A stretch of DNA of 64,000 bases from Branchiostoma floridae (taxonomy: Eukaryota > Chordata > Leptocardii > Amphioxiformes > Branchiostomatidae): NCBI RefSeq assembly GCF_000003815.2, contig NC_049993.1:8243762-8307761 (forward strand), written 5' to 3'. This document shows, piece by piece, positions 45,306-64,000 of the stretch (the first letter of the stretch is position 1; every line of letters starts with the position of its first letter). Below the pieces are notes generated by a model that saw nothing but the letters and a program-made list of their open reading frames with translations, was not told the origin of the DNA and did no database searches. A program made the translations under genes and the position numbers.

Positions 45306-45509
45306 TGGGGTTCAAGCGCTGCCAAAATGACCGTGCAAAAGGTCCGACGCATAGTGGTTAGCATTTGGTTTGTGAGCTGGCGGCTTGTGTTTGGCGCAGG
45401 TTCAAATCCCGGGAGCCAGGAGACTGTTTCTTGTTTCTGTTCACTTCTTGTGTTTCATGTGAAACTGGAAGTCTTACAAGGTATAAGCGGATGAAACCTG
45501 CTATTTCTG
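45306..45509 (+). promoter_or_regulatory. Probable 5' leader of the FRRS1-like gene, with upstream out-of-frame ATG
   Basis: A pyrimidine/GT-rich tract ends in AACAG at 45301-45305, a possible splice acceptor, so this stretch may be the untranslated start of exon 1. An ATG at 45491, 19 bases before the real start, opens a different frame that runs through exon 1 to about 45646. It could lower translation. No TATA box is evident. A tRNA-like sequence lies inside the stretch. Confidence 0.35.
45340..45415 (+). repeat. tRNA-like sequence (SINE head or tRNA pseudogene) in the 5' leader of the FRRS1-like gene
   Basis: An A-box-like TAGTGGTTAGCA (45352-45363) and a B box GGTTCAAATCC (45399-45409) have tRNA-like spacing. 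The two ends do not pair as an acceptor stem, so a functional tRNA gene is unlikely. Confidence 0.55.
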
Positions 45510-47745
45510 ATGGCCTTCTTTGTGTTGATCCAGATGTTGGGAGTTATAGTGTCGCTGCTGGCCCTTACAGCGGGTGTGTGGGCTTACCCGTCAGGTGCCC
45601 CAGCCACAGCCTGTCTGGACATGACCCCTCAACACGGGCCCTCTGAACAGACCAGCACGCCGTCGTATGAACTAGTGGTCAGCAATGATACATACGCAGG
45701 CGGGGATGAGATTGAAGGTAAGATCTACAGGTTTGATGAAATAGTAAAGATTCAACACACTGAAAGAGCCGAGGGTCTCCAGGACCAACTGGAGGGAGTA
45801 CATGTACATGTGTATGCCCAGGACAGATCAACCTGGCGTGAACTTTCCATGTCTGTAGCTGCTATGCATCAGACTATGATGCCTGCGAATGATTGATTGA
45901 ATTGAATGATTACGTGCCATTTTTAAAGTTTTTATTTTACAAAATATATCATATCTTCTGTTATAACATAATCCAGAAATTCTTTATATCACTGTTTTTT
46001 TACCTTTTATTGATTCAACATAACACATAATGGTAGCCTGAATGGCGTTAGAATTTACAACTGACACATAGCCTACTCGGTCCGCATATGTACAGAAAAA
46101 CAATATATAAAATAGTATACAACATCCCTAACATTAAGTACCAGTCATTACAAACTAAGTTTTGTATCAAATTGTGCAAATTTCATCTACATGTAGTTGT
46201 TTAGTGACCGCAGTAGGACAGTAAAACTTCAGTGCACTAAGTTAATGTGTAACATTAAAGTGTACTGATAATTGTTTCCCTTTACTTCAGTCACCCTAAG
46301 AAGGACGGGTAACTCTGCACAATTCAGGGGGTTCTTCATCCAAGCTCGCACCCCCGGATCAACAGATGCACAAGGACAGTTCACCACTGTTGACTCTGGC
46401 ACCACCCAAACTGTCAACTGTGGCAGTGTGGCAAACTCACAAGTAAGGCAAAGTCTGTTTTCAAGTTTCAGGTTACATGTGTTGTAAGTTAAGTCTATTG
46501 TATTTTAGTGATAAACCAAGGAGGTTAAAGAACCTCCTTGGATAAACTGTCACCTTTGTACGAAGATTAAAAAGTTTTATTAATTTTCAATATCAACTGC
46601 AATATTATCACAATTCTTATTTGCAGATTCGGATTTGTGAATCTGTAATCTTAAAAATTGGTGTCCGCGATGATATTTCTACTAGTTTGTTCAGGTACAA
46701 GTACAGGTACACATCATTTAGGTCTAGATCTGTATCTAGGAAACAATCTTAGGGGTGTAACAGATACAGCACCGTGCACGTAATAGGTACACAGCCCTAT
46801 TCATGATCATCATATAGATGTCATAACCCATTAGACACAGGTACCGCGGGAAATCATTGCCTTTCCTGTGTGATACGTTCTAGACTATAAGTAGTAACTC
46901 TGAACCATGTTATGACCTTGTATGTGTTGGTTTCACAGAATGGAGTGACTCACACAGGAAGGTCAGATAAAACAACTGTGACTGTGACATGGACTGCACC
47001 AGCAAACCGTGTGGGACACATACAGTTCAGGTATGTGAAATCTTATTGTTGCCTCTTGATTTGAACACAGTTGTACTCTTGTTACCCCAAGTGCTATGGA
47101 TACATACAGTGCTACATGTGTAAGTACACTGTGTAACACAGACTCTTACTGTTCAGGGCCTTTGATTGTCCCTTTCCTTGGAGTTTATGAACATAAACCT
47201 GTAACTGTGAAGAACTGTACAGTAGTGTAACAAAAAAAATAACAGATAATGAGAGGACTTTGTGGAAATGACTATGGAAACTTGACACAATAGAGAAAAA
47301 CAGAACAGTTTTGATTGTAACCACATTATAAATGTAACAATCCATTATGATAGAAACCACCAGATTTAACACTTAGATATGATGTTCCAAACTCAGTGGG
47401 CAATGTGTGCATGAATTTCAAAACCATATTGTGATGGCCTCAATCCTCCAGATCCAACTTACAGGTACACCAAGCATTGGTTAATCAGCCAGAGAGGGCT
47501 GCTTACAGTTTAAGTTTTAGAGTATAATCTAATCAGGCTGCTGTACTTTGGGATGAAGAGTGAATTTTACCCCACAGCTCTTAGATGTTTCTTTAATACA
47601 GTAATGTGGTTAACCTTTTTCCAGGGCCACAGTTGTCGAGACAGAGGCTGTTTTCTGGGTGAGCGAGGTGAAGTCTGCATACGTGCAGGACCCCACAGCT
47701 GGGCCTTTACCCACACAAGCAACCTCTAGTGGACAGGACATTGGG
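45510..47745 (+). other. Signal peptide and Reeler-domain exons (1-4) of the FRRS1-like gene
   Basis: Exon 1 encodes a hydrophobic leader (MAFFVLIQMLGVIVSLLALT) followed by YPSGAPATAC, the typical opening of a Reeler domain. Exons 2-4 add the GFFIQAR, NGVTHT and AVFWV segments characteristic of that fold. An NDT glycosylation sequon lies in exon 1. Intron phases after exons 1 to 4 are 1, 0, 2 and 0, and each junction restores a family-like residue. Exon 4 runs past the domain into a Pro/Thr/Ser-rich linker before DOMON. Confidence 0.9.
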
Positions 47746-58640: not shown

Positions 58641-59482
58641 AATTAACAGTCAACAACTGACAATGATACGCATATACAATGTACATGTTGACAAACACTG
58701 ATTTAAAAAAGGCAATGGGAAACAAAAGTCAAATCAGTATTGCGATGAATGTTTTATTGTAATACAATGTGGTTTAATTACATGATGAATTGAGCCACGT
58801 GTAGTTCTCTAGATTATCGCTAGGTCGCGTGTACTACGAGAACCCAGCGATGGCCAACGACTCAATTCCATTTTTGCGCCTTTTCCTCGTGTATAATAGA
58901 TGTACTGCTGGAAATGTCGTCCGTTTCCAGTGAATCTGTCCGTGCATTGCCTCCGCGGGATCTGTTCACATGGCGCCCTCTAGCGACTGACCGTTCGGTG
59001 CAGCGAGATACCTGACACTACAGTTCACACAGAGTAACTCTATTTACTTCCCACACAAAAGAACGGGATAACTAATCAAACTTTTATGCACCTCTGAAGA
59101 ACAAGCGATTTTGCGTGCGCGCTCTTTGGCCGTTGAACCCAAATATTCATTTTTCTACACAGCTCGTTTTAATAATACAATAAAGTACTCAATCCACCAC
59201 ATTTCAATGTATGCAACTTATTTCATTATTTTGGTTACTGGACAAAGTTCTTCGCACAAACATTGGCCGTATCCATTCAGTCACCCTTGACCTAATTGAC
59301 GTCATGGCGAATGAGGAAGTCGAATGAGGAAATTGATTTGCCCACGGAGATTTGGGGCTCGTCAAGTCACTTGTAGACTTACGTATAGTACGTGCAGGTC
59401 TATATTTCTGTCGATCTTGGTGCTTGCTGAGAAGAGGAAAGTATATCCCAGTCAGATCCCAGTGCTCGACCACAAAGAAAGT
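58641..59482. other. Intergenic region and 5' flank of the fibrinogen-domain gene
   Basis: GC-richer patches at 58790-59010 contain the E-box-like CCACGTG and the CTCF-like motif. A doubled GAATGAGGAA lies at 59308-59330. No TATA box was identified. Confidence 0.4.
58971..58985 (-). promoter_or_regulatory. CTCF-like motif between the two genes
   Basis: On the minus strand the sequence reads CGCTAGAGGGCGCCA, which matches the core of the animal CTCF consensus (YAGRGGGCGC). It lies about 500 bp upstream of the fibrinogen-domain gene and just past the FRRS1-like 3' end, a natural place for a boundary. Confidence 0.35.
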
Positions 59483-59537
59483 ATGGGTTGGATCGGACTT
59501 TTGATAGCCTGGCTCGGCCTAAGCACCTGTGTCGTCG
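59483..59537 (+). other. Exon 1: signal peptide of the fibrinogen-domain gene
   Basis: The ATG at 59483 opens MGWIGLLIAWLGLSTCVV, a compact hydrophobic leader, then a GTAAGA donor in phase 1. An in-frame upstream ATG at 59324 would add a hydrophilic extension and mask the leader, so 59483 is preferred. Cleavage is expected near the exon junction. Confidence 0.75.
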
Positions 59538-62500
59538 GTAAGAATGAAGTTTTCTTAGCAATGTTCTTACCATTCTAACGAATGTCATTGCCCATTTCAA
59601 GAGATGTTCGTATTTTCTACTGTAGCACGTCATAACGTCTTATTTTTGCACGTCGATAGACTTGGAGTAGACAATGCGTGTGTCATATTTTCTTTCGTCG
59701 TCCACGCGAAATAACTAGATAAAGCTCTCTAAAACTAAGGGGGTGAGAGTAGTGCGAAGGATCTACTTTCGTAAAACTATTGAGACCATTTTGATAAGTG
59801 CCCGATCGCGACTTCATGTATGATTTGCCATTTTTCTGACTGTCAAACGCCTAGACTCCGATAGCTATTTTTGTCACGCTCAAGATACTTTGTTGAATAC
59901 AGGCATTTCTCGTTAATGTACCGTCTAACAGTAAACAAACAAAGCGACTGTGGCTTGGAGGCAGTACCTGGTACCCTTTGCTTAAACATTTGTATCTTTT
60001 GTGTGGGAAGTGGTATAGTGTCACTACTCTGTTAATCTTGTTAGAATGGTGCTGCCCACGTCCATTAGATAGTACTGTGTAGGACTGAAATGTTTTGGCG
60101 ACGCGACGCCTCATGAGCATAGCCTTTAATCGAAAAGTGGAATCTTTAAAAGACTCTTAAATTTGTTCAACACAGGCACAACCCCGCCTCAGGACTGCTC
60201 GGACCTGTTCGCAACCGGGACCCGTCAGAGTGGCACATACACGGTCGGTGAACAGAGTCCGTACCAGGTCTACTGTGACATGAGCTTCCTAGGAGGCGGC
60301 TGGACCGTCCTCCAACGCCGACAGGACGGCTCCGTGGACTTCGCCAAGACATGGGAGGAATATCAACAGGGGTTCGGCGATCTGGACCGAGAGTTTTGGC
60401 TGGGGTTAGACAAGATCCACACACTGACTATTGCGAAGCGCAACATTCTTCAGGTCGAGCTTGAAGACTTTGATGGAGAAAGGAGGTTCGCGCGGTACAA
60501 CACGTTCTTGGTCGGGGACGCGAGTGGTAATTATACGGTGTCCATCTCTGGGCACACAGGGAATGCAGGGGACAGTCTTACTAGCACAGGTAATGACGGA
60601 CGAGACAACATAAACTTAAGAATGTTTTCCACGATAGATAGGGACAATGACAGAAACGGTGGGCATTGTGCGTCTTTATACAGCCAAGGCGGGTACCCAG
60701 TCAGTTGTGGACAGTCCTTCCTGAACGGAAAGTATAACTGTCACCTCAGCTCGGTATCCTGTGGCGATTCGCAGGGTGTCGTCTGGTCGTCATGGGGAGG
60801 TAGAAGTTACTTCTTGAAGAAAATAACCATCATGATCAGGCCTGCTGACTTCACAGGTATGATGATACTTATTCTGTACAAAAGACCTAATTTAGTGGGA
60901 AGAAGCACGTGTTTTTGTCGCGCATATCCATGCTCTGTTAATCAGACTACTAAATGCCAACCAACCAAAGAGTCTAACGAAGAGGATTTTTTAGAAATCA
61001 ATTCGCTCCTTTAAAAGAACATTTTCAATATGAATTCTTTTTCATTATCTGATTACTAGTAATAGTTAAATTGTTAAGAGGAGTAACGTAATGTCTTACG
61101 CATGCTCATCTATTTAAGTATGAATTTAGGAGTTCTTTTTATACTAGCCAGTACAATACTTCGTTTGTATCAAACCTTTGGTATTGTAGTGTCTGAATAA
61201 AAGTAAAATCATGGTGGTACCTGTCACATCAGGCTCAGGTTCGCCCCAAGACTGTGCTGACCTGTACCGAGACGGGATCATAGAAAGCGGAGTCAACGCT
61301 ATCAGCAGCCCTCGCGTCTTTGTCTACTGCGACATGAGGAACTCAGGCGGCGGGTGGACCATGATCCAGCGCCGACAGGACGGGTCCGTGGACTTCGCCA
61401 AGAACTGGGCAGGCTACGAGCAAGGATTTGGAAACCTCGATGGGGAACACTGGCTGGGACTGAGCAAACAGAACCAAATCACGGGACAGAAGACGTACAC
61501 TTTGCGAGTCGATTTAGGAGATTGGGAAAATCAGAGTAGGTACGCGACTTACAGCAGTTTCAGTGTTGGTGGCAGCAATTCGGACTATCGGGTCAGCATC
61601 AGCGACTACTCGGGTGATGCCGGAGACAGTCTCACAAGTGGGGGCAACCGTTTTGACATAAACGGTATACGTTTTTCGACCTCAGACAATGACAATAACC
61701 CAAATACTCGCACAAATTGTGCGAGTAGCTTTGGTGGAGGTGGATGGTGGTTTCCGGACAGTTGTGGATACGCATTCGTAAACGGAAGGTACAACGACTC
61801 GGATAGTGCAGAGGGTGTGAACTGGGAAAGATGGAGAGGTTACACTTACTCCTTGAAGATGACATCTCTAAAACTAAGACCGGATGACTTTGCAGGTAAG
61901 TTGACTTCTACTCGGTATCCTGTTAATATATCATCAGATATGTCTACAAAAAAGGGAATTCGACCACGTTGTTGTTAAGATAACGTTATAAAGCAGTGCC
62001 GTTTTACCAAACTGATCTGTCCCATAGTAAATTTTTACATTAGTAAGTATTACACTAAAGCACTGAAAAAATATGAATTACTATTCTTCAATTTCATTTT
62101 GCCCACTCAGTTTGCGCAGAGGGAACGTTTGGTCCGAATTGCTCTGAAACATGTCGCTGTCTGAGAGGAAACGCCTACTGCAATCATGTGACTGGGGCGT
62201 GCTTTGGCGGATGTACTGATGGATGGGCGGGCAGCGACTGTCAAACAGGTACTTGTTATCGCACTTTGCTTCAGACACTGGTAAACAATTAACTTAGTCT
62301 ATTGAGATCCTATTTTTGTTTGGTTTATGCAATAATAAAAAGACTTCCACCGTTAATTTTCGTTGGTGATGGGTAGGTGTAGGACGATGAAGTTGGGTGT
62401 AGGCTGTTTCAAATTCAAATCCTTTGTCCACTTTCAGATGTGGAATGCAGTGCACCTTATAAACCTTGGGTGGGTGCTTATATCAAGTATTACAACTTGA

Positions 62501-63733
62501 TGGTGACTCATGACATTCCACCAAGCGAAGAGCCAAAAAAGGGCTGCCATGACAGCATCAAGTTCACATTGCACTTTTCTATTTGTAATCGCAATGTTGT
62601 TATCACCCGCCCTTTTCATTTTGTGGTATTGTGATGGCTGACCTTGCGATATAATTGTGACCTCGCATTCATCAATATCCAATGATGTTAGCCCTCCATT
62701 ATTTCTTCGTTGCATCAGTCCCTCCACAGTTTCTTCAGCCGACACCAGCAAATGAAACGAGAAAATTAGGGCGAGCCGTCACCTGGACATGCAAGGCCAC
62801 CGGAGATCCCCTTCCTACCATTACCTGGTGGCACGGCAGGGACAAGCTTACGGTGGCAAATACATCACAGACAGAGTCAGGAGTTCAGTACACTGAGAGC
62901 GTCTTCACCATCAACGCCGTGAGCTTCGACGACAATGGGACTTACAGCTGCGTGGCTGCTAATATCGGGGGATTGGAGATAGTAACGTTCTCGTTGACTG
63001 TCCAAGGTAAGTTACTAATTGATTAAAAGTGACGTCACCGGTGTACATGTGATGCTTGTTTGCCATACGCTAGGTGACCATTTTTTTCAGGTAATTTTAT
63101 GAAAATGGGATTTACATAGCTAGGATGTGTTTTGGTACCTCTATCTCATTACCTCTGTGTAAAGCATGTATTGTGGTGACGGAGATTTGTGTCTGTCCGA
63201 AAGGTAGCTAGAGAACGATTTGAATGGATTGTTTTGATATTTGGTATGTGGGTAAGTTTTCATAAGATCTTGTGTAAGTTAAATTTTATTTCTGTATCAG
63301 CTCGTCGTATGAATCCATGTAGTGGTTTTCAAGATTTTAATGATGTCTGAACGATCGCTTTATTTCAGCATGCACATCCGGCGAGTTCGGGCCTGGCTGT
63401 TTTGGTACCTGTCACTGTGCGCATGGAGGTTCCGTGTGTGACGTCACGACTGGAGTCTGCTCTAGTGGATGGTGTGAGGCTGGGTGGGAGGGGAGCAACT
63501 GTCAGACAGGTATGAAATTCAAACATCCACAAAGCACTCCAGTTTTGGACTTTGGTCATTGTAGCTCATCATTCCATGCTCATTTATTTCAGCTTGTATG
63601 CCCGGTGAGTTTGGACCCAACTGTACGTTCACCTGTCACTGTGCGAGTGGAGGTTCCGTGTGTAACGTCACTACTGGAGTTTGCTCAAGCGGTGGGTGTG
63701 AGCCCGGGTGGAAGGGAAGCGACTGTCAGACAG
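59483..63733 (+). CDS. Secreted or membrane protein with two fibrinogen-like domains, EGF-like modules and an Ig domain (5' part; continues past window)
   Basis: Exons: 59483-59537, 60176-60856, 61233-61895, 62111-62248, 62719-63006, 63369-63509, 63593-63733. They give 702 residues up to the last clear exon. All six introns are phase 1. Residues 1-18 are a signal peptide, about 24-245 fibrinogen domain 1, 251-466 fibrinogen domain 2, 467-512 EGF-like, 513-608 I-set Ig, 609-655 and 656-702 EGF-like. Fibrinogen-related domains bind carbohydrates, acetyl groups or receptors. EGF/Ig chains of this type occur in Tie and scavenger receptors. The protein is therefore probably extracellular, in recognition or signalling. 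No stop or transmembrane helix is reached, so whether it is secreted or a receptor is unknown. Splitting into two genes after the first fibrinogen domain remains possible. Confidence 0.85.
60176..60856 (+). other. Exon 2: fibrinogen-like domain 1
   Basis: One exon encodes a whole fibrinogen C-terminal domain, from QDCSDL through VYCDM, GGGWTVLQRRQDGSVDF, FWLGLDKIH and the calcium-site motif DRDND (residues 173-177) to IRPADF. The standard Cys pairs are C26/C52 and C183/C197. The tryptophan-rich segment usual before the last standard Cys is replaced by YPVS, and an extra Cys pair (207, 214) is present. A sequon NYT lies near residue 137. Reading through the donor gives 52 more residues before a stop at 61012-61014. 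Confidence 0.92.
61196..61201 (+). terminator. AATAAA inside intron 2 of the fibrinogen-domain gene
   Basis: AATAAA lies about 180 bases after the read-through stop of fibrinogen domain 1 (61012-61014) and just before exon 3. It could serve intronic polyadenylation and give a short secreted form with one fibrinogen domain. Confidence 0.3.
61233..61895 (+). other. Exon 3: fibrinogen-like domain 2
   Basis: A second full fibrinogen C-terminal domain lies in one phase 1-1 exon. It keeps the features the first lacks, including GGGGWWFPDSC and the motif SDNDNNPNTRTNCA around the calcium site. It shares GGGWT, IQRRQDGSVDFAK and HWLGL with domain 1, so the pair probably arose by tandem exon duplication followed by divergence. 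An acceptor CATCAG at 61227-61232 sets the start; the ATG at 61211 lies in the intron. Confidence 0.92.
62111..62248 (+). other. Exon 4: EGF-like module 1
   Basis: It encodes a 46-residue Cys-rich repeat of the type FGPNC-x-C-x-C-x-C-x-TGxC-x-C-xDGWxGxDCQ. It has eight cysteines, closer to the laminin/Tie/MEGF style of EGF repeat than to the classic six-Cys form. It is phase 1 at both ends. Confidence 0.85.
62719..63006 (+). other. Exon 5: I-set immunoglobulin domain
   Basis: A 96-residue domain with VTWTCKATGDPLP, ITWWHG and DDNGTYSCVAAN, which are the B-strand Cys, core Trp and F-strand Cys of an I-set Ig fold. Phase 1 at both ends; acceptor TGCATCAG at 62711-62718. Three N-linked sequons are visible: NET, NTS and NGT. 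Confidence 0.9.
63369..63509 (+). other. Exon 6: EGF-like module 2
   Basis: A 47-residue Cys-rich repeat: GEFGPGC, CHCAHGGSVC, TGVC, GWEGSNCQT. Phase 1 at both ends. It is closely similar to the next exon, so the two are recent tandem duplicates. Confidence 0.88.
63593..63733 (+). other. Exon 7: EGF-like module 3
   Basis: A 47-residue repeat of the same length and phase as exon 6: GEFGPNC, CHCASGGSVC, TGVCSSGGC, GWKGSDCQT. The reading frame runs on past the donor only to a stop at 63838-63840, so a further exon is expected. Confidence 0.88.
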
Positions 63734-63961
63734 GTAGAAACTCAGAAACTGACGTGTGGGTTCGGTATAGAGCAGTCATATTGCTTGTTCCATATTCGGA
63801 CATGAATCCGTTTATTTTCAACGTGTCCGTAAAAAGTTGATAACATTCATTCTAACATATGTGCCAGGTAAGTTTCTATTACTTGCAGACATTTCCTATT
63901 TAACCACACATTTGCATATTTCTAAGTGTTCCCCACTAAAATGCTCTTTATCGTACTCCAG

Positions 63962-64000
63962 AACAAAAGACAGTTGGTTTACCATTGGTATACATAGGGA
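63962..64000 (+). other. Possible start of the next exon of the fibrinogen-domain gene
   Basis: A pyrimidine-rich tract ending in CTCCAG precedes 63962. In the required phase the following bases read EQKTVGLPLVYIG without a stop up to the window end. No domain can be recognised from 13 residues. Confidence 0.25.

Follow-up and report, generated by a model that had tools for sequence, protein, structure and literature searches.

The DNA analyzed here, which we call the window, is a 64,000-nucleotide stretch of the Branchiostoma floridae genome (C15:8243762-8307761 in assembly coordinates) that ends within a multi-exon gene encoding fibrinogen (FBG), EGF and Ig domains. Splicing of the seven exons spanning positions 59483-63733 results in 702 residues comprising a signal peptide, FBG1, FBG2, EGF1, Ig, EGF2 and EGF3 (Table 1). 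The exon coordinates in the initial annotation of this stretch were exact, and its placing of fibrinogen modules first and EGF and Ig modules after them in one polypeptide is supported as a gene model. All six introns between these exons are GT-AG with phase 1 at every junction, and each of the six internal exons is of phase 1-1, in agreement with the pattern of exon shuffling, one module per exon, proposed at that time. Introns in the extracellular part measure 83-638 bp. Against Pfam, the 702-residue protein gave two Fibrinogen_C stretches (E = 1.6e-127) and Ig_3/I-set matches (E = 7.9e-14 to 3.8e-16); the three EGF modules, each with eight cysteines in near-identical spacing, missed the cut-off. 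The signal peptide is the most hydrophobic 19-mer of the protein once the transmembrane (TM) segment described below is excluded. An upstream in-frame ATG at 59324, which would turn the signal peptide into an internal anchor as in FIBCD1, was set aside for its weaker start context. No extra phase 1-1 exon was found in the introns of 59500-64000 with a crude splice filter, one so stringent that a genuine exon could be overlooked, as the FBG2 acceptor itself falls below its limit.

Table 1. Exons of the predicted receptor gene that lie within the window (window coordinates).
Exon and content	Position	Strand	Basis
Exon 1: initiator ATG, signal peptide MGWIGLLIAWLGLSTCVVG, phase 1 end	59483..59537	+	Start context A(-3), G(+4); donor GTAAGA
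Exon 2: FBG1, phase 1-1, six Cys, ligand-pocket Cys-Gly	60176..60856	+	Pfam Fibrinogen_C 6.6e-66; alignment with six PDB FBG chains
Exon 3: FBG2, phase 1-1, four Cys, Cys-Gly	61233..61895	+	Pfam Fibrinogen_C 8.9e-64; 48% identity to FBG1
Exon 4: EGF1, eight Cys, phase 1-1	62111..62248	+	78% / 73% identity in paralogs A / B
Exon 5: I-set Ig, phase 1-1	62719..63006	+	Pfam Ig_3 3.8e-16, I-set 1.8e-15; 63% / 68% identity in paralogs A / B
Exon 6: EGF2, eight Cys, phase 1-1	63369..63509	+	76% identity to EGF3; tandem exon duplicate; dN/dS 0.25
Exon 7: EGF3, eight Cys, phase 1-1	63593..63733	+	Splice model, Cys spacing, Tie2 match of EGF2-EGF3
Exon 8 start (TM exon), cut by window end	63962..64000	+	Acceptor CAG, phase 1 entry; reads EQKTVGLPLVYIG then IIAGAVAGVIAIAAAGAVVFYC in the genome

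The initial annotation had left it to the missing 3′ end to decide whether a TM segment or a kinase follows, and extension of the model past position 64,000 revealed both. A splice model on genomic DNA adds 13 further exons on the same strand and ends about 4.1 kb beyond the window at C15:8311824. These exons encode, in order, the TM segment, a basic juxtamembrane (JM) region, SAM (two exons) and the kinase (eight exons), followed by a short last exon with the stop; the full TM exon 8 is C15:8307723-8307828 (local coordinates L009:4524-4629), and its first 39 bases end the window. The complete model has 20 exons with GT-AG in 19 of 19 introns, an open frame to the stop, and a predicted product of 1154 residues with the architecture signal peptide (SP)-FBG-FBG-EGF-Ig-EGF-EGF-TM-SAM-TyrK. 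In this product Pfam finds Fibrinogen_C twice, I-set, SAM_1 (23.6 bits against a cut-off of 23; SAM_2 22.1 against 20.5) and PK_Tyr_Ser-Thr (6.1e-91). SAM covers residues 783-842 and the kinase residues 871-1138, with P-loop, VAVK, HRDLAARN, DFG, WMAYE and two activation-loop tyrosines in place. The TM segment is the most hydrophobic 19-mer of the protein (mean 2.53), and CRRKNN comes next. With a signal peptide, an extracellular region, one TM segment and an intact cytoplasmic tyrosine kinase, the product is predicted, from genomic DNA and hydropathy, to be a receptor tyrosine kinase. Internal extracellular exons are uniformly 1-1 and intracellular exons are of mixed phase, a contrast that would be expected if modules had been shuffled onto a chassis of older origin. 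The ratio of nonsynonymous to synonymous substitution rates (dN/dS), calculated against the next gene downstream for JM and three kinase exons, was 0.27 for JM and 0.45, 0.09 and 0.06 for the kinase exons. The intron ahead of the intact HRD kinase exon also holds a fragment (TGTGTTCACCGCAAGGAACATCCTACTTGGATC) that partly repeats the beginning of that exon and is preceded by AG, at C15:8309.94 kb (L009:6738-6772).

The intracellular half has close relatives in the same genome assembly (513,431,437 bases in 431 contigs). A query of JM, SAM and the first kinase exon gave 25 matches. We found this SAM-kinase chassis on the plus strand at the present locus, at C15:8318, 8354, 8379, 8412 and 8461 kb and at C5:2747 kb, and on the minus strand at C15:10280 kb, C15:1921 kb and C3:5057 kb; C2:13207 kb gave an additional weak match to the kinase part only. 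The third kinase exon was present at at least ten loci, the nine others being 59-88% identical, and in 10 of 10 a SAM-like exon was matched ahead of the kinase; all these kinase locus counts are lower bounds drawn from the best-scoring candidates. Kinase pieces of the four relatives that were aligned are 74-88% identical to the present gene. Six of the loci lie on one strand within about 155 kb (C15:8303-8461 kb), and among the FBG matches listed, only the two of the present gene fall in this 8.30-8.46 Mb group. The exon order JM-SAM-kinase is repeated at C5:2747-2749 kb and at C15:8318 kb, the next stretch downstream, where exon matches (not a spliced model) run from two PAN through four EGF of the same type into the JM-SAM-kinase exons. 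At C15:10.28 Mb and 1.92 Mb one FBG is followed by three and six EGF matches, respectively, and then by SAM and kinase on one strand. This FBG is 53% identical to FBG1 at both loci (184 residues matched at 1.92 Mb), and the 10.28 Mb locus has in addition a marginal PAN before the FBG (22.0 bits, cut-off 21.4) and two FN3 between EGF and SAM. These results place the present gene in a group of its own genome in which a SAM exon precedes kinase exons of close sequence. In the C3 relative the third kinase exon (C3:5055273-5055455) contains a TAG, perhaps marking a pseudogene.

The extracellular half has relatives of a different kind. Two paralogs, A and B, at C15:14.77-14.79 Mb share FBG1, FBG2, EGF1 and Ig with the present gene at 63-86% identity, and a 20 kb stretch at each showed no kinase match (the B stretch includes 1249 N). 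After the Ig, locus A continues with FN3 open reading frames (ORFs), three of the four scanned passing the Pfam cut-off, and locus B with ORFs that by eye are very like them; a hydrophobic TM-like stretch, again by eye, lies further along in both. Beyond it, at C15:14.797 Mb (L014:1721-2032), an ORF of locus A without any Pfam match encodes YDMV, YQAL, YTSL and YVEL ahead of its stop. For FBG1, FBG2, EGF1 and Ig, dN/dS was 0.12-0.27 between the present gene and A and B. With EGF2 against EGF3 at 0.25 as well (dN 0.168, dS 0.668), the module chain is not a chance effect. Between A and B, dN/dS over the four shared modules was 0.15-0.37. The FBG-FBG-EGF-Ig cassette is thus under constraint, and it seems to be attached to more than one kind of signalling end.

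A further partial match is the unplaced contig C393 (1-5488), which aligns with window positions 61232-63062. Identity is 98-100% from intron 3 through EGF1, intron 4 and Ig to the start of intron 5, with the FBG2 exon at 86-95% in 100-base steps (dS 0.29, vs 0.03 in EGF1 and 0 in Ig). The match breaks at about 63062 inside intron 5 and gives way to other sequence that is repetitive towards the contig end. The contig may represent an allele in which one exon has been exchanged, a copy of recent origin, or a chimera produced in assembly. No positive selection on FBG2 was seen between the window and C393 (dN/dS 0.24).

We interpret the window exons as that part of a single receptor tyrosine kinase gene, SP-FBG-FBG-EGF-Ig-EGF-EGF-TM-SAM-kinase, which encodes its extracellular half, and assign this reading a probability of about 85%. 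What is read from the DNA is the order, strand and phases of the exons, the domain matches, the kinase motifs, purifying selection on the modules tested and the relatives. As the FBG2-EGF1 intron is only 215 bp long and lacks AATAAA and ATTAAA, there is little room for a gene boundary between these modules. Of the two possibilities first raised for this protein, an immune lectin or a receptor with built-in ligand-type domains, the second gains from the TM segment and tyrosine kinase that follow, and the main product is unlikely to be a lectin that is only secreted.

Several points weigh against a single receptor. The model was built on genomic DNA, and many odd domain architectures in lancelets have been traced to gene-prediction errors, as noted in PMC6071037 and PMC4967905. 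SAM barely exceeds its Pfam cut-offs and has weak PDB matches (best E 0.0089). The ectodomains at 10.28 and 1.92 Mb are known as exon matches and the 3′ ends of A and B as ORFs, in neither case as spliced models. Finally, the Ig exon is directly followed by ATTAAA and a stop, and intron 4 has an in-frame start resembling a signal peptide (MTASSSHCTFLFVIAMLLSPALFILWY, from 62549). The small introns, the continuous phase and the joint occurrence of FBG and SAM-kinase exons at separate loci argue against a prediction error. The intron-4 start and the ATTAAA and stop leave room for shorter products, and a short soluble form terminated in an intron, or a form without FBG, is possible.

The odds on the alternatives overlap with those on the receptor model, since a lectin or a Tie relationship could hold within it. 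The one that survives best, still improbable, is that the gene encodes an FBG lectin of the ficolin/FIBCD1 type for acetylated microbial sugars, with the kinase attached or not. FBG1 and FBG2 pair with each other in an eight-sequence tree, with modest support (80/84), and show 40-46% identity to each of the six PDB chains compared, namely Ang1, Ang2, FIBCD1, MFAP4, ficolin-2 and tenascin-R. The top PDB match of FBG2 is FIBCD1 (177 bits), as a lectin would predict, and FBG genes are numerous, with at least 151 FBG1-like matches genome-wide (150 of 528 candidates scored); C10 holds many of these (19.3-20.3 Mb), and more lie on C3, C14 and C148. The pocket histidine is presumably needed for acetyl binding. 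In the alignment with the six chains this Cys-His pair is present in FIBCD1, MFAP4, ficolin-2 and tenascin-R, whereas both FBGs of the present gene have Cys-Gly, as do Ang1 and Ang2, the FBGs at 10.28 and 1.92 Mb and FBG1 of A and B. FBG1 also lacks the Trp-Trp beside the pocket and has two more cysteines than FBG2; FBG1 of A, FBG1 of B and the FBG at 10.28 Mb have the same two extra cysteines and retain Trp-Trp. Together the pocket residues, the loss of Trp-Trp and the extra cysteines argue against a standard acetyl-lectin site, and they are not proof of an angiopoietin. In line with a lectin, lancelet FBG genes and receptors appear among fast-diversifying receptor families in a passage of PMC4284660.

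Slightly less probable is a model with two neighbouring genes, one for a secreted protein of FBG-FBG-EGF-Ig or FBG-FBG-EGF type and the other for a receptor kinase beginning in intron 4 or 5. In its favour are the Ig exon, which reads past its donor to a stop (TVQGKLLID, then stop) with ATTAAA at 63022, the intron-4 start, which is nearly unchanged in C393, the cassette without a kinase match at A and B, and the near-identity of C393 through the Ig exon up to its break in intron 5. However, introns 4 and 5 measure 470 and 362 bp, and either would have to accommodate the 3′ end of one gene together with the promoter and first exon of the next, while frame and phase remain open across both junctions. 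At A and B the Ig is followed by FN3 ORFs and the TM-like stretch with no evident 3′ end, and FBG lies upstream of SAM-kinase exons at two other loci.

The initial annotation had also pointed to angiopoietins and Tie, a specific relation that our comparisons did not support. Angiopoietins give the top bit scores of FBG1, a ranking not borne out by identity (40-44% to all six chains) or by the tree, in neither of which they are nearest, and a grouping of FBG1 with them was rejected. Compared with PDB, the EGF2-EGF3 pair had five matches, with Tie2 first (31 bits, weak) and SCARF1 at 21 bits, and the Ig is a generic I-set whose best matches are Robo2, DSCAM and titin. Among solved structures the kinase scored 287 bits with FGFR2 and 283 with Tie2, and an EGFR chain with two kinase copies was highest by total, at about 155 bits per copy. 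In a family-profile search the best 60 of 168 matches were FGFR1-3 and VEGFR2, with no Tie2 among the matches listed, and a kinase tree with FGFR1 and EGFR only gave no starred fork. The kinase thus appears not to be Tie-specific, with FGFR kinases scoring slightly above Tie2. Tie receptors have the order Ig-Ig-EGFx3-Ig-FN3x3, and Tie2 is not known to carry SAM. The present ectodomain, FBG-FBG-EGF-Ig-EGF-EGF, contains no FN3, so it does not show the Tie-type combination of Ig and EGF ending in FN3. A cephalochordate Tie receptor with captured angiopoietin-type ligand domains, signalling by tethered ligand in cis, is therefore the least probable alternative, despite the first-ranked Tie2 matches of the EGF pair, the FBG1 bit scores, the Ang-like Cys-Gly pocket, the high-ranking Tie2 kinase match and the Tie-like order of EGF, FN3 and kinase at 10.28 Mb, because the FBG identities, the weak EGF match, the kinase ranking and the SAM speak against it, and angiopoietins bind the second Ig of Tie2 (in the part of PMC8294587 concerned), the present gene having one generic Ig.

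Returning to the single receptor gene, we propose that the paired N-terminal FBGs would form a ligand-binding head. As both FBGs lack the histidine of the Cys-His pocket, the ligand may be a protein or a non-acetyl glycan. The EGF-Ig-EGF-EGF stalk would keep this head away from the membrane, and ligand-driven clustering would bring the kinases together for trans-phosphorylation on the activation-loop tyrosines, with the juxtamembrane SAM possibly helping clustering or recruiting partners. Two receptor types appear to have been combined in this gene, where 1-1 exon shuffling may have joined the FBG-FBG-EGF-Ig cassette to the EGF-TM-SAM-kinase chassis of the local kinase gene group.

An immune use of the receptor is plausible, given the place of lancelet FBG genes among the fast-diversifying families in PMC4284660. 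In the portion of PMC12373286 concerned, the dispensable genes of two lancelets are enriched for a set of functions that includes protein tyrosine kinase activity; the word fibrinogen does not occur in the main text of that paper. More speculatively, the lancelet-type lineage may reuse one SAM-tyrosine-kinase chassis, by 1-1 shuffling, under varied heads (paired FBG, single FBG, PAN, EGF arrays), with the FBG-FBG-EGF-Ig head also placed on kinase-less receptors, one of them with a tyrosine-motif tail. Such a set could be a germline-shuffled system of kinase and adaptor receptors for immunity or allorecognition, with FBG2 possibly swapped as an exon cassette between haplotypes; we consider this tentative and rather doubtful as a whole. 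Because some relatives share the head and apparently not the kinase, and others the kinase and not the head, the locus amounts to a natural experiment in the making of new signalling receptors by exon shuffling, and every exchange of head or kinase is open to a direct test.

Elsewhere in the window, Reeler was detected in 3 of 85 ORFs (best E 4.3e-9) and DOMON in one of them (5.3e-6), upstream on the same strand (45495-45893 and plus-strand ORFs of 44-57 kb). We take these ORFs to be probably a ferric-chelate-reductase-1-like gene. Pfam on eight more ORFs gave a sole match, Reeler, just below the cut-off, and Rfam and tRNA scans returned no matches.

We compared the predicted protein with known systems. 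Our literature searches, which did not combine SAM with kinase, found no title or abstract opening naming an FBG-bearing receptor kinase, and we make no claim of absence from print. Tie1 and Tie2 (TEK) share EGF of a similar type, Ig, TM and tyrosine kinase with the present gene, and FBG is found on the ligand side of Tie; here, in contrast, FBG lies inside the receptor, the order is EGF-Ig-EGF-EGF without FN3, and SAM stands between TM and kinase. Of the solved kinases, FGFR and VEGFR score highest per single domain, with a narrow lead, but their ectodomains and the SAM are wholly different. Eph receptors are likewise receptor tyrosine kinases with SAM. Their SAM is C-terminal of the kinase and their ectodomain is different, whereas here SAM precedes the kinase and Pfam gives no ephrin-binding match. 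Molluscan FREPs and FReMs combine FBG with IgSF or EGF, respectively, and in FREPs a V-type IgSF is N-terminal and FBG C-terminal, according to a section of PMC7588048. In the present gene the FBGs are N-terminal, the Ig is an I-set, and TM and kinase follow. The FBG domain itself links the gene with angiopoietins, FIBCD1, MFAP4, ficolins and tenascins. Angiopoietins, FIBCD1, MFAP4 and ficolins each carry a single C-terminal FBG, and the tenascin architecture described in a part of PMC11401434 also has one at the C-terminus, unlike the two N-terminal FBGs on a kinase found here. FBGs are known mainly as ligands or soluble lectins; the prediction for this lancelet gene puts a pair of them at the head of a receptor kinase.

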